This document shows, piece by piece, positions 68-21,804 of a DNA stretch of 36,095 nucleotides. Location: NCBI GenBank assembly GCA_945787885.1, contig CALZJF010000024.1, positions 1-36,095 on the forward strand, in the 5' to 3' direction. Each line of letters begins with the position of its first letter. Within the stretch, counting starts at the first letter, position 1. Both the position numbers and the translations under genes were made by a program. The stretch is from an uncultured Bacteroidales bacterium. GTDB lineage: Bacteria > Bacteroidota > Bacteroidia > Bacteroidales > Bacteroidaceae. The notes under the pieces are model-generated. The model was not told where the DNA came from. It worked only from the letters and a program-made list of their open reading frames with translations, and ran no database searches.

Positions 68-605
68 ATGTTTTGGGCAATTTGCTATAAACCGCACGGC
101 TGCGCCCCGAAGGGTAGGGTAATCGATATTGTTGATTGGGCGCGAAGTGTAGTAGGGCGGCAAGCGTGCGGACAGTGGCTGCGCCCATCGTGTCGCTCCG
201 CTGCGTTCCGCTTGCCCTGCGCATGACAATGTCATGCCTCTATGGGAAATGCGCGTGCCCCAATCGTGTTGTTGAACATCCTACCCCCGATGTTTCCCTT
301 CTGCGGCATTCTTCGGAGCATGGCGCATGTTCCCACAGCAAGATTTTCGGCTCAGGAACTTCCCCGGTTTTCATCACGTTTTGTATGCCGTCCTTTCGCT
401 TTTGTCCCCTATTCTGCTGAAAAGGGGAGCTTTGGCGAGGTGGGGTAGGGCATTTGTCGCAAGGATTGCGTATATTTGCGCGTCTAATATGCACGTGTAT
501 GTACGTGCGCGGCACTTGTGTGCCTGCGCGTTTGCATAATGAGTAAGCCTCCGGAGGGGAATATGCCCAATGCCCCACGGAGCATCCCGACGGAAGAAAT
601 AAACA
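68..605. other. Long intergenic region before lptD
   Basis: I see no convincing gene in these 538 bases. The short open frames on both strands overlap one another, are rich in Cys, Arg and Pro, and resemble no known family. A possible promoter lies at 453-478, and 485-535 is rich in alternating GT/CG dinucleotides. The stretch could hold a small RNA or a long leader for lptD, but no clear structure was found. Confidence 0.5.
453..478 (+). promoter_or_regulatory. Possible Bacteroidetes-type promoter for lptD
   Basis: TATATTTG (471-478) matches the Bacteroidetes -7 element TAnnTTTG, and TTTG lies at 453-456. The spacer is only 14 bases against the usual 19 or so, so the -33 match may be fortuitous. 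It would give a leader of roughly 120 bases. Confidence 0.35.
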
Positions 606-3600
606 ATGATACGAAGAATACCACAACACCTGTTCACGCTCCTGCTTGCCGTAGTCCTGACGGTCAGTCTGACGGCTGGCTGCGGACCGACGTTGATGAC
701 GACGCCAAACAAGATGGCGGAGGAGGAACGGGAGCAGAATGCCAGCTACGTCGTGACAGACCATGAAGCCGTGAACCCTGACGATGCGGCCGGCCTCGCC
801 GCCGACAGTGCGAAGCTGCAGCACGATGCCGCCGTGGCCGACAGCCTGCGACGAGCATTGGCTGACTCCCTCCTGAACCGCGAGGGCGCAACGGGAGCAC
901 TGTCAGAGAACGACAGTCTGCTCCTTGCCGTCATGGACAGCCTGAGAGCCGCGACGGGCAGCCGCCGCGACACGCTCATCGTCATCGGCGATACGCTGCG
1001 GCGCGACAGCACGGCGGCAGACACCGCCAAGGTGAAGACGGCGAAGAAATCCGGCATTGAAGCCCCCGTCACCTACACCGCCACTGACTCCATCGTCTAT
1101 GAGGCTGCCAGCGGAAACGCCTATCTCTACGGCGATGCCAAGGTGAACTATCAGAACATGGAGCTGCAGGCAGAGCGTATCACGATGAATATGGACTCCT
1201 CGCTCGTGCATGCCGTCGGCGTGACCGACTCGCTGGGCAACGTGAAAGGCAGTCCGGTCTATAATCAAGGCAGCGACAGCTATGAGAGCGACAAGATGGC
1301 GTTCAATTTCAAGACGAAACGCGGATTTATCTCCGGCGTGAAGACGGAGCAGGGCGATGGCTTCTTGCAGAGCGAACGATCGAAACGCATGGACGACGGC
1401 ATGTTCTACGTGGAGAATGCCATATATACCACCTGCGATGCAGAAACCCCCCACTTCGGTCTGAAGGTGACGCGCGGCAAGATCAATCCGGGCAAGGAAG
1501 CCTTCTTCGGTCCGGCCTATCTTGTGGTGGAGGGCGTTCCCCTGCCCCTCGCCGTCCCCTATGGATACTTCCCCTTCACGAAGAGCTATTCGTCGGGAAT
1601 CATCATGCCGACGTATGGCGACGAGATGGCGCGAGGCTTCTATCTCAGGGAGGGCGGCTACTATTGGGCCATCAACGACAAGATAGACCTCAAGCTGCTC
1701 GGCGAAATCTATACGAAAGGCTCGTGGGGCGTAAGCGGCGAGACGCGCTACGTCAAGCGCTACAAGTTTCGCGGCAACGCCATGATTTCCTACCAGAACA
1801 CCGTGAATGGCGATAAGAACATGCCCGACTATACGAAGCAGACGAGCCTGAAAGTGACATGGAGCCATTCGAGCGATGCCAAGGCGAACCCCAACCAGTC
1901 GTTTACGGCGCGCGTGAACTTTGCCTCGCAAAACTATGAGCGCTCGAACCTCAACTCCATGTACAACCCCCTCGCCTATACGCAATCCACGCGAGCATCG
2001 TCAGTCAGCTATAGCCGCAGCATACCCAAAATCGGCATGAGCATCGCCACGTCGGGCAACATCACGCAGAACATGCGCGACTCATCGTTGGCAGTGACGC
2101 TGCCTGACCTCTCTATCTCCGTCTCCAGATTCTATCCCTTCCGCAGAAGGCAGGCAGCGGGCAAGGAGCGATGGTATGAGAAGATTTCCATGTCATACAC
2201 CGGGCAGCTCTCCAACTCCTACAACGGCAAGGAAAACCAGTTGCTGCACTCCAACCTCGCCACTGACTGGAAGAACGGCATGCAGCACCGTGTGCCCATC
2301 GACGCCACCTTCCAGCTCTTCAAATACATCAACATTTCCCCCTCCTTCTCCTTCCGCGACATCATGTACGTGAGCCGCGTGGAGCGCGACTGGGACACGA
2401 AGAAGCAGCGCGAGGTGTGCGACACCGTCTTCGGATTCTACAACCTCTACGACTGGAGCACATCGCTCAGCATGAACACCACGCTCTACGGCTTCTACAA
2501 ACCTTGGAAAAAGCTCTTCGGAGAGAAAATCCAGGTGATTCGCCATGTCTTGAAGCCCACCGTCAGCTTCAGCTATTCGCCCGACTTCACCACCGACCGC
2601 TATGGCTACTACGACACCTACGTGAAGACGGATGCCAACGGCGAGGTCTCCACCGTCAGATATTCGCCCTATCAGGGACTCCTCTATGGATTCCCGAGCG
2701 GAAAGAAGTCAGGAAGCATCAACTTCGGCCTCTCGAACAATTTGGAGATGAAGGTGAAGTCAGACCGCGACACCACGGGCTACCGGAAGATATCCCTCAT
2801 TGATGAGTTTGCCTTCAACATGTCGTACAACATGGCTGCCAAGGTGAGGCCGTGGAGCGACCTGAACATGCGATTCCGACTGAAACTTTCGCCACGCTAC
2901 ACCTTCTCCCTCAACGCCGTCTTTGCCACTTATGCCTATGAGATGGACGAAAATGGAAAAGTGTTTGTGGGCAACAAGACGGAGTACAGCCAAGGCCGCT
3001 TCGGACGTTTCCAAGGCATGAGCCAAAACCTCTCCTATACCATCAACAACCAGAAGGCTATGACCTTCTTCAACCTCCTGCGCGGACGCGGATGGAGCGA
3101 CCTCTTCGCCAACATCGGCGGACGAAAGGACAAGGACGACCGCGAGAACGAGGACGAGGAAAACGATGAAACCTTCGACACCGACGACGGTTCGGACGAT
3201 GCCAACATCGACCCTGACCTCAAGAAAGGAAAGGAAGGAAAGGCGGTGAAGGCGGGCGTTGACGAAGATGGCTATCTCCTTTTCTCCCTCCCTTGGAGCC
3301 TCACGTTCAGCTATGGCATTTCGATGCGCGAGAACACGCAGGCACAGATCAACGTGCGCCGGATGCGCTATCCCTATGCCTTCACCCATACGCTGAGCTT
3401 CTCGGGATTCGTGCGTCTGGCAGAGGGATGGAACGTCTCCTTCACCTCCGGCTACGACTTCAACTATCACGACCTTTCGATGACCACCATATCGCTGAGC
3501 CGCGACTTGCACTGCTTCGAGATGTCGTGCTCCGTCGTGCTGAAACCTTACACCAGCTACAACTTCTCCTTCCGCGCCCGAAGCCAGGAATTGGCCGATG

Positions 3601-3685: not shown

Positions 3686-4414
3686 ATGAAAAAGATACAC
3701 CATCTTAGCCTCGGACTGCTGGCAGCCATGACCGTCGGCAGCACCCTGACCTCCACCTTCACCTCCTGCGTGAGCGACGATGAAGTAGGGCAGCACACCG
3801 CCTATTTCTATCCCGTGCGCCCCAACGGCATGGAGTTTTATGCCGACCAAGTATCTGACACGACCGTCGTCGTCTCCACCGACGACTGGACGGCAGCCGT
3901 CAGAAACCTCATCGGCGATGAAGGATGGCTGAAGATTACGCCTGAAAAGGCGAGCGTTGCCGCAGGCGGAATGCTCTATCAGACCATGAAGTTCCAGTTT
4001 TCCGCGAACAAGACGGGCAAGGCACGCCAAGCACAGGTGGAAGTGGATGTGAAAACCGACAAGATAGATGGCATCAGTCTGCCCGTCACGCAATACGGAT
4101 GGCTGAACATCACCGTGCCAGAGCCACGGTTCACTACCCAAGAGCTCGCCACGGCAGAGGTCGTCTTCAAAGCCAGCGTGAAGGCAGAAGGCGGAAAGGC
4201 GTATCTCTCCTGCCGCGTCTATGCTGATGCCACCTTGCAGAGCGATGCCGAATGGCTCACCATTCCCGACGATGCGAAGACCCTCAAGGAGGGCGCACAC
4301 GGACTGCAGTTTGACGTCGCCGCCAACAACAGTGGGGCTGAGCGTACGGCAAACGTCACGCTGACATCAAACGGCTGCAGCAATACCATCACCTACATAC
4401 AGGCTGCCCAGTGA
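3686..4414 (+). CDS. Lipoprotein with two BACON-like domains
   Basis: The 242-residue protein starts at ATG 3686; an in-frame TTG at 3680 is less likely. A signal peptide ends FTSC, with Cys28 as the probable lipidated residue, followed by SDDE. Two similar modules follow, at about 85-145 and 190-242. Each has a Trp-Leu strand (GWLKI, EWLTI), an N-x-(S/T)-G-x-x-R core (ANKTGKAR, ANNSGAER) and a closing strand with Gln, which resembles the BACON fold of Bacteroidetes surface proteins. BACON domains are thought to bind glycans or mucin or act as spacers; binding here is inference. The stop overlaps the start of the following esterase (GTGA), suggesting coupled translation and a shared job on surface glycans. 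Confidence 0.75.
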   Translation: MKKIHHLSLGLLAAMTVGSTLTSTFTSCVSDDEVGQHTAYFYPVRPNGMEFYADQVSDTTVVVSTDDWTAAVRNLIGDEGWLKITPEKASVAAGGMLYQTMKFQFSANKTGKARQAQVEVDVKTDKIDGISLPVTQYGWLNITVPEPRFTTQELATAEVVFKASVKAEGGKAYLSCRVYADATLQSDAEWLTIPDDAKTLKEGAHGLQFDVAANNSGAERTANVTLTSNGCSNTITYIQAAQ

Positions 4415-6561
4415 AGACCCGACGCAATGCCTTGAGGATGAGGGGAATGAGCCTCATTGTCGCACTGATGAGCGTGCTCCCCATGATGGCCCAGCGCGTG
4501 AAGGTGGCGTGCGTGGGCAATAGTGTGACCTATGGCTACGGGCTGCTGGACCGCGATAGTACGGCATACCCCGTGCAGCTGCAGCGAATGCTCGGCGATG
4601 GCTATGAAGTGGGGAACTTCGGAAAGAGCGGAGCCACCCTGCTGCGTCACGGACACCGCCCCTACACGGAGCAGGAAGAATATCGAAAAGCCTTGGACTT
4701 TGGGGCAGAAATCGTTGTCGTACACCTCGGCCTCAATGATACCGACCCACGAAATTGGCCTAACTATCGCGATGAGTTCGAGCAAGACTATCGCCAACTC
4801 ATAGACAGCCTGCAGGCAGCAGCTCCCGGCGGGAAGTTGAAAAAGCTCGTCGTATGCCTCATGACCCCCATTTTCCATGGTCATCACCGCTTCGAGAGCG
4901 GCACGCGCGACTGGCACGCCGAGATTCAGCAGGCAATTCGCCGCGTGGCAATGTGCTACGATGTGGAGCCGCTCGACCTCTACACACCCCTGCACTGCCG
5001 CCCCGACCTCTTCCCCGACAATCTCCATCCCAATGCCGAAGGCGCACGCATCCTGGCGCAGACCGTCTATGGCGGCATCACGGGCGACTGGGGCGGACTC
5101 GCGCTCGCTGAGGTCTATTCAGATGGCATGGTCGTGCAGCACGATGCGCCCGCACTGGCAGGACGCAGCAATGCTGGCACACACGTCAGCGTGAGCGTCA
5201 AAAAAGGAGGGAAACGCCTTCAGCAGACCGAGTGTGCGGCGGACAACAATGGGCATTGGCGCATACAGCTGGAGCCGCTGCAGCCCGGCGGACCCTACAC
5301 CTTCGACATCACCACGGAGCGGGGGGAGAAAATCACACTCAGCGATGTGCTCGCCGGCGAGGTGTGGCTCTGCTCAGGCCAGAGCAATATGGCGTTCAGG
5401 CTCGACCAGTGTGCCACGGCTGGCAACGATGTGCTGCAAGCCCCCCTCTATGGGCAGCACACGGAGGGTGCCACCATCCGCCTTTTCAATATGCGCGAGC
5501 GATGGGCGACGGACAACAGCGTATGGCCTGAAGAGGCGCGCGACGAAGTGTTGGCTCTGCGCTATTTCAACCCTACGCGCTGGACTCCCTGCAACGCCGA
5601 GACCGCAGCAGCATTCTCTGCCATCGGGTATCACTTCGGACGCGTGCTGGCTGACTCGCTTCAGATGCCTGTCGGACTGATTTGCAACGCTGTGGGAGGT
5701 TCGACCACTGAGGCGTGGGTGGGGCGCACAACGTTAGAGAAAGAATTTCCCACCATACTCCGCTCATGGCTGCAGAACGACTTTATACAAGACTGGGCGC
5801 GCGGAAGAGCTGCGAAGAACTTAGGCATTGAGCAGCAGGCGAATGCCGATGCGGCACGCTTGCGGCACCCCTATCTTCCCGCCTATCTCTTCGAGACAGC
5901 CATTGCGCCCCTCGATGCCTTCCCCATCAAGGGAGTGGCATGGTATCAGGGCGAATCGAACGCCCACAACAAGGATGCCCACGACCGCCTCTTCACGCTG
6001 TTGGTAGATTCATGGCGCATGCAGTGGAATCAGCTCGGACTTCCCTTCTATTTCGTACAGCTCTCCAGCCTTGACCGCCCGTCGTGGCCATGGTTTCGCG
6101 ATGGGCAGCGCATCCTCCAGTCGGAGATTCGCAACACGGGCATGGTGGTCTGCACGGATTTGGGCGACAGCTTAGACGTGCATCCGCGGCGGAAGCGTGA
6201 GGTCGGCGAGCGATTGGCGCGGCAAGTGCTGCACGAACGCTATGGTTTTTCGCACATCGTGCCCTCTGGCCCCCTGCCAGAGACTGCCGTCTTCACCGAA
6301 GGCAAGGTGTTCGTGTATTTCTCCTATGGCGAGGGCATGCAGGGCAGTGATGGCACTGACATCACCACGTTTGAAGTTGCCGGTGCCGACGGGCGCTTCT
6401 ATCCTGCCAAAGTGTGCGCCATCGCCTCCAACCGTCTGGAGATTGCTGCTCCCGAAGTGCCGAATCCCGTCAGCGTGCGCTACGGCTGGCAACCTTTCAC
6501 ACGTGCGAATCTCGTCAATGCAGCAGGTTTGCCCGCTACCACCTTCCGACTCGACAAATAA
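4411..6561 (+). CDS. Two-domain SGNH hydrolase / sialate O-acetylesterase-type enzyme
   Basis: The 716-residue exported enzyme has two esterase domains. Residues 31-225 are an SGNH hydrolase with block I GNS (Ser38), block III GLND (Asn109) and block V DNLH (Asp203, His206). Residues about 230-716 are a SASA/SIAE (DUF303-like) domain with CSGQSNM (Ser325), WYQGESN (511-517) and DVHP (Asp589, His591). Such enzymes remove O-acetyl groups from sialic acids or plant glycans, which lets exo-glycosidases act. The substrate is not readable here; the GH20 hexosaminidase downstream would fit host glycan use. The start is taken as GTG 4411, overlapping the BACON gene's stop; ATG 4438 is an alternative and leaves a better signal peptide ending near MMAQ. 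Both catalytic sets look intact. Confidence 0.85.
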   Translation: MKTRRNALRMRGMSLIVALMSVLPMMAQRVKVACVGNSVTYGYGLLDRDSTAYPVQLQRMLGDGYEVGNFGKSGATLLRHGHRPYTEQEEYRKALDFGAEIVVVHLGLNDTDPRNWPNYRDEFEQDYRQLIDSLQAAAPGGKLKKLVVCLMTPIFHGHHRFESGTRDWHAEIQQAIRRVAMCYDVEPLDLYTPLHCRPDLFPDNLHPNAEGARILAQTVYGGITGDWGGLALAEVYSDGMVVQHDAPALAGRSNAGTHVSVSVKKGGKRLQQTECAADNNGHWRIQLEPLQPGGPYTFDITTERGEKITLSDVLAGEVWLCSGQSNMAFRLDQCATAGNDVLQAPLYGQHTEGATIRLFNMRERWATDNSVWPEEARDEVLALRYFNPTRWTPCNAETAAAFSAIGYHFGRVLADSLQMPVGLICNAVGGSTTEAWVGRTTLEKEFPTILRSWLQNDFIQDWARGRAAKNLGIEQQANADAARLRHPYLPAYLFETAIAPLDAFPIKGVAWYQGESNAHNKDAHDRLFTLLVDSWRMQWNQLGLPFYFVQLSSLDRPSWPWFRDGQRILQSEIRNTGMVVCTDLGDSLDVHPRRKREVGERLARQVLHERYGFSHIVPSGPLPETAVFTEGKVFVYFSYGEGMQGSDGTDITTFEVAGADGRFYPAKVCAIASNRLEIAAPEVPNPVSVRYGWQPFTRANLVNAAGLPATTFRLDK

Positions 6562-16733: not shown

Positions 16734-17864
16734 TCAATTATTGAGCATGGAGTGAATGTTGGCAGGGGTTAATCCCGTCTTCCGGGCCACTTCCTCTATG
16801 GTTGTCCCACTCTCCAACATCATTGTAATCATAGCACGTAGCATTCTGTCCTGCTCTTTAATTTGTTGGTTTTGCTCTCTGAGTTGTCCTTCCTGCTCTC
16901 TGAGTTGTTGGTTTTGCTCTCTAAGCTGTCCTTCCTGCTCTCTGAGCTGTCCTTCCTGCTCTCTGAGTTGTTGGTTTTGTTCTCTAAGCTGTCCTTCCTG
17001 CTCTCTGAGTTGTTGGTTTTGTTCTCTAAGCTGTCCTTCCTGCTCTCTGAGTTGTCCCTCCTGTTCTCTGAGCTGTTTGTCTTGCTCCTGTATTCTTTTT
17101 TCTCGTGCCATGAGTGTCGTGTCGCGGTCTTCGATGGCTTTGAAAAACTCGTCTTCGATGTTCATCTCTTTTCTGGTATGTGGGTTGGCGATAGCTGATT
17201 GTAGGCGGCGGACGATGTATTGCATATCATGGTCGTCAGCATACGAATTTTCGTTTACCTCAATCACATGATGGTCTATGGAGCAGATATTGCTTTGGTC
17301 GAAGATGCTCAACACCTTTTCGAGCCGGTTGTTGATGCGTCCGTGCAGGAGTGGAATTTGCACGATGATGCACTCGTGGGTCAGACTCCCGACGAAAGGG
17401 CTGGGATGCTTCGTCTCCACAAGGTTTCCATTGTAGTCATAAATATTGTGATTGACGTAGATGACGGGTACATTGATGTCCTCCACTTTGTGCCCGAGTA
17501 GATAGACAGCCACCATCGGCAGGGCATGTTTGTCTTGACTGTCCTCTACGATGTTGGCCTTGCTGCTGTATTGTGTTGAAAGATATTGTCGGAATCTCAG
17601 CGTTTCAGTCTCCAACCATGTTTTTTGCAGTTCGATGAGCACAAGACGCTCGCTACCGTCAGCCTCACGCACCGTAGCGCCGAAGTCAATTCTGAACATG
17701 GAGATATTGTTTCGTGTAATGTTTGAATATTCATGAGGCCGTGGTTCCACCTTCAGCACCTCTTTCTTCAGCAGTGCCGAGAGCAGAATCTTTGCGATGC
17801 GTTCGTCCTCTATGAGATACTTGAACACACTGTCATAGATAGGGTTGGCTACAAATAGTTTCAT
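16734..17864 (-). CDS. Rpn-family PD-(D/E)XK nuclease with heptad coiled coil
   Basis: The 376-residue protein belongs to the Rpn/YhgA-like PD-(D/E)XK group, often labelled 'putative transposase'. The start NPIYDSVFKYLIED is typical. Likely catalytic residues are Asp60 (FRIDFG), Glu78 and Gln80 (IELQK). The middle is a helical domain to about residue 250. Residues 264-333 are ten exact heptads QLREQ(EG/NQ), flanked by related heptads, giving a long hydrophilic coiled coil. The C-terminus (GTTIEEVARKTGLTPANIHSM) looks like the small helical motif at the end of many Rpn proteins. E. coli RpnA promotes RecA-independent recombination as a nuclease; the role here is inferred. It lies 61 bases after folB and may be read from the same operon. 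Confidence 0.85.
   Translation of the reverse strand: MKLFVANPIYDSVFKYLIEDERIAKILLSALLKKEVLKVEPRPHEYSNITRNNISMFRIDFGATVREADGSERLVLIELQKTWLETETLRFRQYLSTQYSSKANIVEDSQDKHALPMVAVYLLGHKVEDINVPVIYVNHNIYDYNGNLVETKHPSPFVGSLTHECIIVQIPLLHGRINNRLEKVLSIFDQSNICSIDHHVIEVNENSYADDHDMQYIVRRLQSAIANPHTRKEMNIEDEFFKAIEDRDTTLMAREKRIQEQDKQLREQEGQLREQEGQLREQNQQLREQEGQLREQNQQLREQEGQLREQEGQLREQNQQLREQEGQLREQNQQIKEQDRMLRAMITMMLESGTTIEEVARKTGLTPANIHSMLNN
16866..17075 (-). repeat. Ten 21-bp repeats encoding the QLREQ heptads
   Basis: Ten heptad codon blocks run in the order EG, EG, NQ, EG, NQ and then the same five again. This points to a 21-bp unit that was itself duplicated as a 105-bp block. The repeats are nearly identical at base level and prone to copy-number change without frame loss. 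Confidence 0.95.
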
Positions 17865-17925: not shown

Positions 17926-18309
17926 CTATCTTTCCGCCGTCAGCGTCACGCTGCATCCCTCGCAGTCAGCCCCCATCGGCGGAGTGTCTTTCCGCAGGCT
18001 GATGGTGGCGGCTGTAATCAGCGGAAAGTCTTGCAAGAGTCGGCGGAGCATTCGCCAGCAAGCATGTTCCAGCAGCTGTGAGGGTTGCAGCATTTCTTCG
18101 CGCAGGGCAGCATACACCTCAGCATAGTTCACCGTTGCCTCCAGATTATCTGTGCGGCAAGCGGTTTCTGCCACATCGGTTTTCAGTCGCAGCGTAGCAT
18201 TGACGGTGAAACTTCCCCCAACGATGCGTTCCTGTGGCATCACTCCGTGGTGGGCCTCGAACCGCATATTCTCTAAGCCTATTGTCACTTCTTTCAGAGT
18301 CATGGTCAT
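17926..18309 (-). CDS. folB: Dihydroneopterin aldolase
   Basis: The 127-residue protein is the folate-pathway enzyme FolB, which cleaves 7,8-dihydroneopterin to 6-hydroxymethyl-dihydropterin and glycolaldehyde. Family motifs are present: IGLENMRFEAHHGVMPQE (catalytic-region Glu27), VNYAEVY (Tyr62), PSQLLEHAC (Glu81, pterin anchor) and ISLRKDTPP (Lys107). The length is usual for this octameric enzyme. It begins nine bases after the stop of the NrdJ-like gene and is the third gene of a tight operon. Confidence 0.92.
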   Translation of the reverse strand: MTMTLKEVTIGLENMRFEAHHGVMPQERIVGGSFTVNATLRLKTDVAETACRTDNLEATVNYAEVYAALREEMLQPSQLLEHACWRMLRRLLQDFPLITAATISLRKDTPPMGADCEGCSVTLTAER

Positions 18310-18318
18310 ATGGCCGGA

Positions 18319-18987
18319 TTAGTCTTCATTCTCCGGTTCGGCGGTATATTTTTTCAGAGCTCTTGCCACCCCCGTCTTCCAGGTGTTGATTGTTTCCGTT
18401 TCGAGTTCGAGCGAATCAATGAGGCGGATGACGTTTTCAATCGGCATTCTGTAGCGCAATACTCCCGAGATGAGTTTGGCATAGTTCCAGTATTCCGGGT
18501 TAAACTTTTCCGACAGTCCCTCGATGGTTGTCTTGTATCCCCGTCGGTTGGCAAACTGGAAGTCATAGCGTTTGGTGCCGTCAGCGTTGTAGTGCTTGAT
18601 GATGTGTCCGGAGCTGCACATCTTCGGCAGTGCGATGCCGTCTTCGTCGTCCAATATTCCCGTAAAGATTTCGTAAGGCCGCCCATCGAGGAGTCCGACG
18701 AATGCCACCCATTTCTCCTTTTTGTTCTGGAAACGCCAGACGTCGCACTCCAACACTTCCGGGCGACGCTCTTTGATGTCATTGCCCTTCGATAGAGCTA
18801 TTTCCGCCAGCATTCCCACGATTTCCCGTCCCTCTTCGCCCAGATGTTGCGGACATTCGAAGTGTTCGCTTTCCGCAGACAGGAAGTTCCGGCAGAGCAT
18901 TTCTGTATATTCTTCAGCCGTATGCCCGTTGTGACGGCGTGCCATTTCGTTGGCTAGAAAAGCCAGATCGGTCGCGTTGATTTTCAT
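18319..18987 (-). CDS. Free-standing NrdJ C-terminal module (class II ribonucleotide reductase-like)
   Basis: From about residue 72 the 222-residue protein reads like the segment near the end of Bacteroidetes adenosylcobalamin-dependent ribonucleotide reductase (NrdJ): RRPEVLECDVWRFQN, KWVAFVGLLDGRPYEIFTG, GYKTTIEGLSEKFNPEYWNY, KLISGVLRYRMPIENV and NTWKTGVARALKKY. The large catalytic barrel and the Cys-rich re-reduction tail that follow or precede this segment in full NrdJ are absent. Residues 1-70 (MKINATDLAFLANEMARRHN onward) are a helical region I do not recognise. The frame is intact, with a proper start, and lies nine bases from each neighbour, so this is a maintained gene and not debris. 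A split class II enzyme exists in Pseudomonas (NrdJa/NrdJb), but no NrdJa partner is seen here. Function is unknown: a regulator, a scaffold or a partner for NrdJ elsewhere are possible. Confidence 0.75.
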   Translation of the reverse strand: MKINATDLAFLANEMARRHNGHTAEEYTEMLCRNFLSAESEHFECPQHLGEEGREIVGMLAEIALSKGNDIKERRPEVLECDVWRFQNKKEKWVAFVGLLDGRPYEIFTGILDDEDGIALPKMCSSGHIIKHYNADGTKRYDFQFANRRGYKTTIEGLSEKFNPEYWNYAKLISGVLRYRMPIENVIRLIDSLELETETINTWKTGVARALKKYTAEPENED

Positions 18988-18996
18988 TTTGTTGGC

Positions 18997-19440
18997 TCAG
19001 TCGTTCATGAGTTTTCTCAAAAAATCGCTCAGTTCGTCGTCCAGTCCCTCCATCAGCTCTCCAGAGATGAGGAACGTGTTGTCATCCACGAGGTAGATAT
19101 CGTCCGTCGTCTCATTCGCATTGTCCTCCAACACGAAGCTGTAGGGGCGCAGGATGCGGATTTCATCTACCAGTGTGCGGTTGTCTTCGAGTATGCGTCT
19201 GAGGCATTTCACCATCTCGTCGTGTAATTTTGCATCATGCTCGAAGCCCCCCCATTCTTTGACGGTGCATGCCGCCAGCTGGCGGTCATCGTCATCGCTG
19301 ATAGTCAGCATCCCGTCAGCAGGGTTCACTCGTATGTAGAGGTCCGTCAGTACAGCCTCGTCTGCCGTTTGTGCCAGTCGTTCTGCTGTTTGTTCGATGG
19401 CTTTGACTATGTCAGCCACCGTATTTGTAGAAAGTTTCAT
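18997..19440 (-). CDS. Small acidic protein, first gene of the NrdJ-like/folB operon
   Basis: I do not recognise a named family for this 147-residue soluble protein. It has an N-terminal helix (residues 5-25), a beta-rich acidic middle (DLYIRVNPADGMLTISDDDD) and a second half with RILRPYSFVLED, DDIYLVDDNTFLISGELM and a helix LDDELSDFLRKLM. It has no signal peptide or membrane segment. Its start lies just downstream of a well-formed promoter, and its stop lies nine bases before the NrdJ-like gene, which suggests the two products act together. Confidence 0.75.
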   Translation of the reverse strand: MKLSTNTVADIVKAIEQTAERLAQTADEAVLTDLYIRVNPADGMLTISDDDDRQLAACTVKEWGGFEHDAKLHDEMVKCLRRILEDNRTLVDEIRILRPYSFVLEDNANETTDDIYLVDDNTFLISGELMEGLDDELSDFLRKLMND

Positions 19441-19621: not shown

Positions 19622-21607
19622 ATGAGAAAAGCCCTCTTATCCCTTCTCCTCTTAAGTGCCACCGCCTCCGTAGCGCAGCAGGTGGTTCCCTTGCCTCGCC
19701 AGGCAGAAATGTCGCGTCAGCAGGTGTCGCATGCACTGCCAGCGGTCAGTCTTGATGCCTCTGCTCTCCAAGCCGTTCGCACGGCCTCCTATTCCCCTTC
19801 CGATGAAGGCTACACCCTCGATGTCAGTGCCGAAGGCATCCGCATTGATGCCTCCACAGCCTTGGGTCGTCTGCGTGCGCGTCAGACCCTTGAGCAATTG
19901 GCAGACGAGAAAGGTCGCCTCCCCCTCTGCCATATTGAAGATGCTCCCGCCTATGCTTGGCGCGGTGCCATGCTGGATCTGAGCCGGCATTATTTCCCCC
20001 TCTCTTATCTGAAGCGTCAGATTGATGTGCTCTCGCGCTACAAGGTGAACCGTCTTCATCTTCATCTGACGGATGCAGCCGGCTGGCGTATGGAAATCAA
20101 GCGCTATCCGCGTCTGACGAGTTTCGCTGCCTTCCGCACCTTCGATTCCTGGAAGACCTGGTGGAATGGCCGCGATGAGTTTGGCGGCGTTGACGATCCT
20201 CTGCGTCGCAAGTATATGGACGAAGGTGCCGATGGTGCATGCGGAGGCTATTACACCCAAGATGAGTTGCGCGGTCTGGTGGAATATGCTGCCCAGCGTG
20301 GCATCACCATCGTCCCGGAGATTGAGATGCCCGCCCACAGCGAGGAGGTGCTGACCGCCTATCCCGAGCTGAGCTGCACCCATGAGCCATACAAGCAGGC
20401 AGATTTCTGTCCCGGCAGCGTTGCCACCTACGATTTTCTGGAGCACGTTCTGGAAGAAGTCATGGAAGTCTTTCCCTCGCAGTACATCCACGTAGGCGGT
20501 GATGAGGCCGCCAAGGCCAGTTGGGGCAGTTGTCCGCTCTGCCAAAAGAAGATGAGCGAGCTGGGCATCACGGAGCTCCACGGTCTGCAGTCGAATCTCA
20601 TTGCCCACATGGGGCGGTTTCTGGCATCCCACGGACGCCAGTTGATAGGCTGGGACGAGGTGATTGACAAGAATCTCTCTAAGAACACCACTGTCATGGT
20701 GTGGCGCAGTGCCGACTTTGCTGCCGATGCTGTCCGTCAGGGTTACGATGTCATCCTCAGTCCCGGCACCCACTGCTATCTCGATTTCTACCAGGATGCC
20801 CCCGACCGTCAGCCCGAAGCCATTGGCGGTTTCACTACGTTGGAGAAAGTCTATAGTTTTGTTCCTGGTGACAATCTTTCGGCTTCAGAGCGTGCCGCCC
20901 ACGTGAAGGGCGTTCAGGGCAATCTCTGGGCGGAATACGTGCCTACTCCCGCTCATGCCGAATACATGCTCTATCCGCGTATGCTCGCTCTGGCAGAAAT
21001 CGGCTGGAACGGTACGGCGGTGAAAGACTATCCTTCCTTCCGCAGCCGCGCACTGAAGGAGGTGAGATACCTTCGCGCCAATGGCATCAATGCGTTCGAC
21101 CTTGACCGTGAGGTGGGCGACCGTGCGGAGACGCAGACCGAGGTGAAGCATCTGGCTCGCGGATGCCGGGTGACGTATGCTCCCGAAGCGCATTATTATA
21201 CGAAAGCCTATGCCGCTGCCGGCGATGTATCGATGACCGACGGCAAGCGTGGTGGTTGGAACAACAACGACGGGCGTTGGCAGGGATTCATCGATGGCAA
21301 GCAATATCGTTTTGATGTCACCATCGACCTCGGCACCACGAAGCGTTTCTCCACCGTCCAGACAGATTTCATGCAGATGTGTGGCCCGGAAATATTCTAT
21401 CCTGAGACGTATGTTGTCAGCGTTTCCGATGATGGCGAGCATTTCACGGAATTGGGCAGAATGCATCGCGAGTCGAAGCGCACGGTCAATCCCGAAGTCT
21501 CCACCTTCCGTGTGGACCGGAAAGCCCGTGCCCGTTATGTCCGCGTGCAGGCCACTCCTTCCGCTTTCGGTGGGTGGCTCTTTGCCGATGAGGTTGTAGT
21601 GAAGTAG
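19622..21607 (+). CDS. GH20 beta-N-acetylhexosaminidase
   Basis: The 661-residue exported enzyme removes terminal GlcNAc or GalNAc from glycans by substrate-assisted catalysis. It has a signal peptide (cleavage near SVA-QQ, residue 18), a GH20 N-terminal beta domain to about 110 and a TIM barrel opening WRGAMLDLSRHYFPLSYLKR. The barrel also has LHLHLTDAAGWRMEIKRYP and VPEIEMPAH, and the catalytic pair in HVGGDEA (Asp294, Glu295). The last 150 residues resemble an F5/8-type (discoidin-like) carbohydrate-binding domain (YVVSVSDDGEHFTELG, ARYVRVQA). Bacteroidales use such enzymes on mucin and N-glycans. It has its own promoter and stands alone. A 23-bp tandem duplication covers its last codons and stop. 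Confidence 0.95.
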   Translation: MRKALLSLLLLSATASVAQQVVPLPRQAEMSRQQVSHALPAVSLDASALQAVRTASYSPSDEGYTLDVSAEGIRIDASTALGRLRARQTLEQLADEKGRLPLCHIEDAPAYAWRGAMLDLSRHYFPLSYLKRQIDVLSRYKVNRLHLHLTDAAGWRMEIKRYPRLTSFAAFRTFDSWKTWWNGRDEFGGVDDPLRRKYMDEGADGACGGYYTQDELRGLVEYAAQRGITIVPEIEMPAHSEEVLTAYPELSCTHEPYKQADFCPGSVATYDFLEHVLEEVMEVFPSQYIHVGGDEAAKASWGSCPLCQKKMSELGITELHGLQSNLIAHMGRFLASHGRQLIGWDEVIDKNLSKNTTVMVWRSADFAADAVRQGYDVILSPGTHCYLDFYQDAPDRQPEAIGGFTTLEKVYSFVPGDNLSASERAAHVKGVQGNLWAEYVPTPAHAEYMLYPRMLALAEIGWNGTAVKDYPSFRSRALKEVRYLRANGINAFDLDREVGDRAETQTEVKHLARGCRVTYAPEAHYYTKAYAAAGDVSMTDGKRGGWNNNDGRWQGFIDGKQYRFDVTIDLGTTKRFSTVQTDFMQMCGPEIFYPETYVVSVSDDGEHFTELGRMHRESKRTVNPEVSTFRVDRKARARYVRVQATPSAFGGWLFADEVVVK

Positions 21608-21690: not shown

Positions 21691-21732
21691 GCGGCCGTTC
21701 TCTCCGGAATGGAGGGAGCGGCCGTTTCGCTT
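21691..21732 (+). terminator. Probable GH20 terminator
   Basis: Two CGGCCG boxes (21692-21697 and 21719-21724) and the inner TCTCC/GGAGG arms form an imperfect GC-rich hairpin. It is followed by the T-rich stretch TTTCGCTT. Confidence 0.6.
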
Positions 21733-21804
21733 GAATAATGATGTGCTTGAATAATGTTGTGCTTGAATAATGTTGTGCTTGAATAATGTTGTGCTTGAAT
21801 AATG
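21729..21804. repeat. 16-bp minisatellite between GH20 and purN
   Basis: GCTTGAATAATGTTGT repeats with starts at 21729, 21745, 21761, 21777 and 21793. The middle three units are identical, the first has ATGT in place of TTGT, and the last is truncated. It lies between convergent genes and no reading frame depends on it. Confidence 0.95.

Follow-up and report, generated by a model that had tools for sequence, protein, structure and literature searches.

A NrdJ C-terminal module probably kept by selection after loss of the catalytic barrel in Bacteroidaceae

Why would a bacterium keep the C-terminal part of a ribonucleotide reductase (RNR) as a gene of its own? The question is raised by a 222-aa open reading frame (nt. 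18319–18987, minus strand) in the window, that is, the whole 36,095-nt stretch of contig CALZJF010000024.1 that was analyzed, one of 96 contigs of a 2.7-Mb genome that is 91% complete. The frame is intact and lies 9 bases from each of its neighbors: an upstream 147-aa protein gene (nt. 18997–19440, minus strand; no family above cut-off; neighborhood cluster c8), common to part of the window gene's clade, and downstream folB, encoding dihydroneopterin aldolase (nt. 17926–18309, minus strand; PF02152, E = 3.9e-27; TIGR00525 above cut-off). Residues ~71–217 share ~70–79% identity, far beyond chance, with the region preceding the Cys-rich tail of full NrdJ, the adenosylcobalamin-dependent (class II) RNR, from the same bacterial family. 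The window gene carries neither the catalytic alpha/beta barrel nor the radical cysteine (NPCxE), and its protein ends after this module, the C-terminal zinc finger and redox cysteine pair being absent. The original prediction had claimed a match to the NrdJ C-terminal region, the absence of both the barrel and the Cys-rich tail, and an intact gene in a tight operon, all of which are borne out.

Searched against the genus, the window protein reached identities of up to 78% with frames of ~850–900 aa, and a short frame from the same genus (G053) is 86% identical to it over the full length. Identity, together with the shared folB neighborhood, indicates common descent of the window module (residues 71–217, alpha+beta; nt. 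18337–18777, minus strand) with the NrdJ C-terminal module. AlphaFold2 returned a predicted model of the entire window protein with a mean pLDDT of 87.8, and residues 71–217 are probably the domain that the class II RNR literature calls IscU-like. The Pfam TSCPD profile (PF12637) scored 15.3 bits against the window protein, below its curated cut-off of 22.8, and matched, at E-values of up to 1 (best 0.0004), 94 of the 100 modules aligned, those of full NrdJ included. NCBIfam profiles gave no match to the window protein, and searches of PDB sequences, using either the protein by itself or a profile, returned nothing convincing. When the module was compared with 15 IscU sequences by hhalign, 42 of 60 shuffles scored as high; IscU was also absent among the VIA-align matches listed for the window protein, an absence that does not exclude an IscU fold. 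As sequence relatives of the module, both PUR-alpha and IscU are unsupported by profile comparison.

The first 70 residues (nt. 18778–18987, minus strand), with helices predicted at residues 5–19, 24–34, and 51–69, had been described as unrelated to NrdJ, a view we would now revise, as they are probably a diverged NrdJ N-terminus. Taken singly, the N-terminus of the window protein gave no score against NrdJ, and its kinship is recognizable via the group profile only: the profile of window-type N-termini (n = 7) scored 31.2 against nine NrdJ N-termini, with 0 of 150 column shuffles as high (best 17.7). Among the barrel-less modules encoded as separate genes (orphans), 21 of 51 N-termini matched NrdJ at E = 0.01 or better; L025 and L054 match at 1e-16 and 1e-11, and in genus g134 four of the five orphans examined match by BLASTP. 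Profile probabilities against NrdJ were 97.7 for group 3 (4 orphans), 89.2 for group 0 (27), and 77.7 for the window's group (7), and in the shuffle controls groups 0 and 2 scored above all 150 shuffles each and group 3 above all 40. Group 1 (13 orphans) gave no NrdJ signal by profile, with 26 of 150 shuffles as high; one of 40 group-1 shuffles had reached a probability of 99.8, which was unrepeated in a 150-shuffle rerun of groups 0, 1, and 2 and was taken as an artefact. An unrelated N-terminal domain is thus rejected by profile matches to NrdJ for groups 0, 2, and 3, but not for group 1. One orphan frame (L005, from genome G034) has no ATG ahead of the module.

Leftovers of NrdJ are also seen at the opposite end of some orphans. 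In six from genus g144 (L196–L198, L208–L210), the four zinc cysteines remain and both presumed redox cysteines are gone, the latter assigned by spacing to Cys-933 and Cys-945 of Stackebrandtia nassauensis NrdJ as given in the available text of PMC5704485. The same pattern occurs in L112, L211, and L212, while L054 has lost one cysteine of the presumed pair. As for the full NrdJ of g144, two (L213, L214) have all six tail cysteines and one (L215) does not keep the full set.

Profiles for NrdJ_Z (TIGR02504) and PF02867 found no match in the whole 91%-complete source genome; neither NrdJ nor NrdA was seen there, and class III NrdD (PF13597; 698-aa frame), encoded on a different contig from the orphan, was the only RNR found. 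Since the source genome shows no NrdJ, the orphan is hardly a partner of the full enzyme. In the genus, a barrel-less module (frames of 160–342 aa, classed by inspection of the frames) was carried by 22 of 58 genomes and a full NrdJ (above cut-off) by 25, with both in one (G002) and neither in 12; the last comprise a 538-aa frame (G020), a frame at a contig end (G050), two long frames with decayed barrels (G041, G056), and eight genomes without a match. This mutual exclusion has a Fisher p of 1.8e-6, which serves as a guide only, given that species are not independent. NrdD was matched in 55 of the 58, the source genome among them. The check proposed earlier, whether genomes with the orphan also have full nrdJ, therefore came out at 1 of 22 carriers, and with no NrdJ in the source genome this contradicts two of the earlier suggestions, a decoy and an allosteric or assembly partner for a complete NrdJ.

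The family sampled (f1) is probably Bacteroidaceae in the wide sense, as close relatives bear the names Prevotella, Xylanibacter, Alloprevotella, and Bacteroidaceae. The module was found in 220 of its 241 genomes. Restricting the count to the 149 genomes of at least 90% completeness gives 144 with the module and 116 with any NrdJ_Z match, class I cross-matches included. With no module at all in 8 of the 58 genus genomes and 5 of these 149, it is not strictly indispensable. Full NrdJ occurs together with a nitroreductase-module fusion in G295 and G335. Three orphan carriers (G003, G007, G010) have a class I RNR, assigned by the NLCxE motif as explained in the available text of PMC9669993. A further orphan carrier, G423, is a single contig listed as 99% complete and is absent from the NrdJ_Z matches. 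In G003 and G007, the class I NrdA gene adjoins a 317-aa ORF (L220, nt. 4243–5193, minus strand; L221, nt. 441–1391, plus strand) that resembles NrdB and is a candidate for it.

Across the order, 134 of 149 sampled genomes (147 from families other than the host's) carry the module, mostly as a single copy within frames of ~840–960 aa. No true orphan was shown outside the host family, where two short frames checked were contig-end cuts and three genomes were left out (G152, a 93-aa frame; G068, a 624-aa frame; G126, two pieces). Short orphan-like frames in G254, G396, G242, G106, and G186 were likewise discarded as NrdJ cut by contig ends. Because the module in the order lies mostly inside long frames, with no true orphan shown outside the family, sequence comparison shows full NrdJ to be the ancestral state.

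Gene neighborhood adds to this picture. Where enough sequence was available, folB lay within 600 bases downstream at 17/34 full, 43/69 orphan, and 13/21 fusion loci of the family (16/34, 38/70, and 12/21, respectively, under a stricter count), while in other families it stood beside NrdJ at 1 of 28 loci, there 560 bases away; at the g144 orphan loci L196–L198, folB was not seen in the sequence examined. Given that the order as a whole has full NrdJ and that folB often follows either form, the orphan is best read as an nrdJ whose barrel was lost in place. At 39 of 68 orphan loci, a divergently oriented nitroreductase gene is found no more than 2.5 kb upstream; such a gene also accompanies 5 of the 23 full NrdJ loci for which sufficient upstream sequence was available. 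Furthermore, an NfsA-like nitroreductase is joined to the NrdJ module in a clade of 21 members (support 97, starred), loci L017, L019, L202, and L203 among such fusions; the fused nitroreductase of L017 matches PRK10765 at E = 1.4e-29, below that profile's cut-off.

Long frames of the family capture intermediate stages of this loss. We scored the intermediates (INTERMEDIATES) by the share they keep of the residues invariant across eight full NrdJ, of which 398 lie in the barrel and 116 belong to the module. The radical-cysteine motif NPCxE is absent from L111 (153/398 barrel and 114/116 module residues kept), L112 (147/398 and 108/116), L211 (210/398 and 111/116), and L212 (212/398 and 111/116), and L113, a 538-aa frame, keeps 66/398 and 106/116. 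In L215 the motif is present as NPCGE (320/398 and 109/116) with the presumed redox pair lost, and in L128, which is without the tail, as NPCAE (202/398 and 106/116). All 13 listed cysteines are retained in 11 of the 20 long frames compared; L217 and L218, which stop inside the module, were left out of the interpretation. Among the long frames compared, the barrel decays while the module does not, and the sequences of this one family form a graded series of working enzyme, decayed barrel, stub, bare module, and fusion.

The trees show that barrel loss happened several times. In the module tree (154 rows), at least nine changes separate full and barrel-less forms, and placing all 91 barrel-less rows in a single clade is rejected (p-AU = 1e-7). 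A genus tree (50 rows) gives seven changes, with 5–8 in bootstraps and at least four forced by starred branches. The module trees were built on 150 columns, which leaves the exact counts soft. With full NrdJ ancestral, these changes are most simply losses. The window gene itself falls in a starred clade of the genus tree made up of 14 barrel-less rows, for which a single old loss, followed by retention of the module, is the simplest account.

Comparison with G053 shows how unevenly the locus has changed: dN is 0.015 for the module and 0.257 for the N-terminus (dS near 3, saturated), and among the neighbors 0.184 for FolB, 0.147 for the 147-aa protein, and 0.069 for the product of a 661-aa gene at 19622, placing the module ~12 times below FolB. 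Over pairs with dS of 0.1–1.5, the median dN/dS was 0.147 for orphan modules (466 pairs, 70 sequences), 0.107 for full NrdJ modules (95 pairs, 61 sequences), and 0.071 for fusion modules (51 pairs, 21 sequences), so the orphan modules are slightly relaxed yet clearly constrained. Mean column entropy was 0.64 in orphan modules, 0.43 in 33 full NrdJ of the family, and 0.71 in all 61 full NrdJ. These substitution patterns indicate that the module is under strong purifying selection. The possibility raised at the outset that relatives are decaying fragments thus stands in part, as they are products of barrel loss, and falls in part, as their module is strongly conserved; the proposal of a domain reused for another task is supported, with nucleotide binding as a conjectural part of it. 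A further mark is Cys81 (codon nt. 18745–18747, minus strand), which is specific to the host's family: it is present in 97% of 125 family modules (34 full, 70 orphan, 21 fusion), and the position is alanine in 26 of 27 NrdJ from other families.

A 161-aa ORF (nt. 18310–18795, plus strand) lies antisense to the module, with which it overlaps, and relatives have it open as well. Rather than a gene, it is probably a by-product of module conservation, because against L090 its dN is high (0.27) and its dS very low (0.17). Two repeats were also noted in the window. A 376-aa protein gene (nt. 16734–17864, minus strand) contains ~10 copies of a 21-base repeat (nt. 16848–17087) encoding a heptad-like REQEGQL/REQNQQL stretch, the copy number of which may vary between strains, and a 16-base tandem repeat (nt. 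21729–21804; 4.8 copies at 98%), possibly a variable-number spacer element, lies between the 661-aa gene (end 21607) and the next plus-strand ORF.

We consider it probable (roughly 0.75) that the gene is a class II RNR remnant left in place, the module of which has a second, RNR-independent function kept by selection; the evolutionary part of this account we hold slightly more firmly than the whole. The class II RNR gene probably lost its barrel in place, leaving a fast-diverging N-terminal stub and the kept C-terminal module. Comparison among genomes shows that barrel, radical cysteine, and presumed redox cysteines are lost and the module retained in genomes with other RNR classes. In the ancestor of the family, the module may have gained its second function while still inside NrdJ, at roughly the time when folB became the neighbor of nrdJ and Cys81 appeared; both features would then mark the family where this took place. 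Once class II catalysis became dispensable, the second function would keep the module, alone or fused to a flavin nitroreductase. As to what that function is, a binding or oligomerization scaffold, responsive to purine (deoxy)nucleotides and with another protein as its target, is our first guess by analogy, and a doubtful one, made because the corresponding Stackebrandtia NrdJ domain is needed for dATP/dGTP-stimulated oligomerization according to the available text of PMC5704485. A more specific version, in which the tail domain is a purine- or pterin-nucleotide sensing scaffold working with FolB and the flavin nitroreductase, with Cys81 in the site and the enzyme repeatedly stripped off, so that a ribonucleotide reductase was turned step by step into a non-reductase protein, is unlikely.

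Other explanations draw on some of the same observations. A role for the module in pterin/folate chemistry, with FolB and an adjoining or fused nitroreductase-type flavoprotein, would suit the frequency of folB beside orphan, full, and fusion loci and its rarity in other families, as well as the nitroreductase upstream of more than half of the orphans and its fusion in the clade of 21; however, adjacency may reflect shared expression only, few full NrdJ loci (5/23) have the nitroreductase, and L196–L198 show no folB in the sequence examined, and we regard this reading as unlikely. The module might instead serve the remaining NrdD/NrdG as an allosteric or assembly partner, given that NrdD is matched in 55 of the 58 genus genomes and is the only RNR found in the source genome, and a domain that assembled one RNR could pass to another. 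That is slightly less likely again, as the orphan adjoins folB with nrdD on a separate contig in the source genome, and the carriers G003, G007, and G010 also have class I RNR. Both readings rank close behind the nucleotide-responsive scaffold as ideas of the module's function.

Readings that deny the module a function of its own, or return it to class II RNR, fare much worse. It is very improbable that the module is a mere relic keeping folB translated or transcribed: the 9-base gap to folB in the window and the retention of the 3′ part of nrdJ would suit such a leader, but leaders need no protein constraint and the module has the lower dN (0.015 against 0.184 for FolB), folB is missing from the 600 bases downstream at 26 of 69 orphan loci, and the fusion clade shows tight constraint (dN/dS of 0.071). 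Still harder to credit is a decaying pseudogene on its way out, in spite of its derivation by loss from a larger gene and the fast divergence of the N-termini, for L111, L112, L113, L128, L211, L212, and L215, with barrel or tail damaged, keep 106–114 of 116 module residues, the window clade most simply retained the module since one old loss, and the orphan dN/dS median is 0.147. A NrdJb-like partner of a class II RNR, full or split, that escaped assembly, as an incomplete genome in 96 contigs might allow, is scarcely conceivable: NrdJ_Z and PF02867 have no match, the exclusion holds across genomes, the single-contig G423 carries the orphan without a NrdJ_Z match, and the RNR matches of G003, G007, and G010 are class I by NLCxE.

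Under the preferred reading of a remnant with a second function, catalysis and redox cysteines were repeatedly removed with the domain kept, and therefore part of the domain's function would be independent of the reductase. Among Prevotella-group bacteria of the gut and rumen, the conserved separate tail gene suggests a second job of the tail, and the graded series makes this hidden function testable, with carriers including Xylanibacter ruminicola and Prevotella ruminicola (L034, L041, L058). A nucleotide- or folate-linked function, if found, would tie DNA-precursor supply to another pathway. For annotation, ORFs with a barrel-less NrdJ module should not be counted as reductases.

Some herpesvirus homologues of the RNR large subunit are not known to have RNR activity, the protein being kept for a non-RNR task. 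The present case is similar in keeping an RNR protein for such a task, but there it is a large-subunit scaffold, whereas here it is a tail domain without the barrel, in bacteria. In S. nassauensis NrdJ, the C-terminal cysteine-rich domain (CRD) has six cysteines, acts as an electron carrier, and is needed for higher oligomers, as described in the available text of PMC5704485. The window module shares the post-barrel position and corresponds to the part of the CRD ahead of the zinc finger; unlike that CRD, which is part of a working enzyme, the window gene is without barrel, zinc finger, and redox pair. Pseudomonas aeruginosa NrdJb is likewise a C-terminal NrdJ part encoded as a separate gene, which mediates dithiol exchange and depends on the presence of NrdJa within the cell (available text of PMC4520616); in contrast, the 91%-complete source genome has no NrdJa match, and the six-cysteine tail with its zinc finger is absent from the window gene. 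In the accessible portion of PMC9669993, an IscU-like domain is described ahead of the zinc finger of class II enzymes with long C-termini; the only separate copies mentioned there are the NrdJb of split enzymes, and a role for the folded domain of these tails is said not to be reported in the RNR literature. The predicted strand and helix order of the window module is compatible with this domain, although the module differs in an extra strand-rich part (residues 126–155) and in having no IscU profile match. Searches of the open-access literature yielded no description of barrel-less NrdJ modules or of a domain kept after reductase loss, which is not proof of absence. Split NrdJa/NrdJb and the IscU-like domain are already known, and what appears to be new is the repeated retention of the domain after reductase loss, via visible intermediates.
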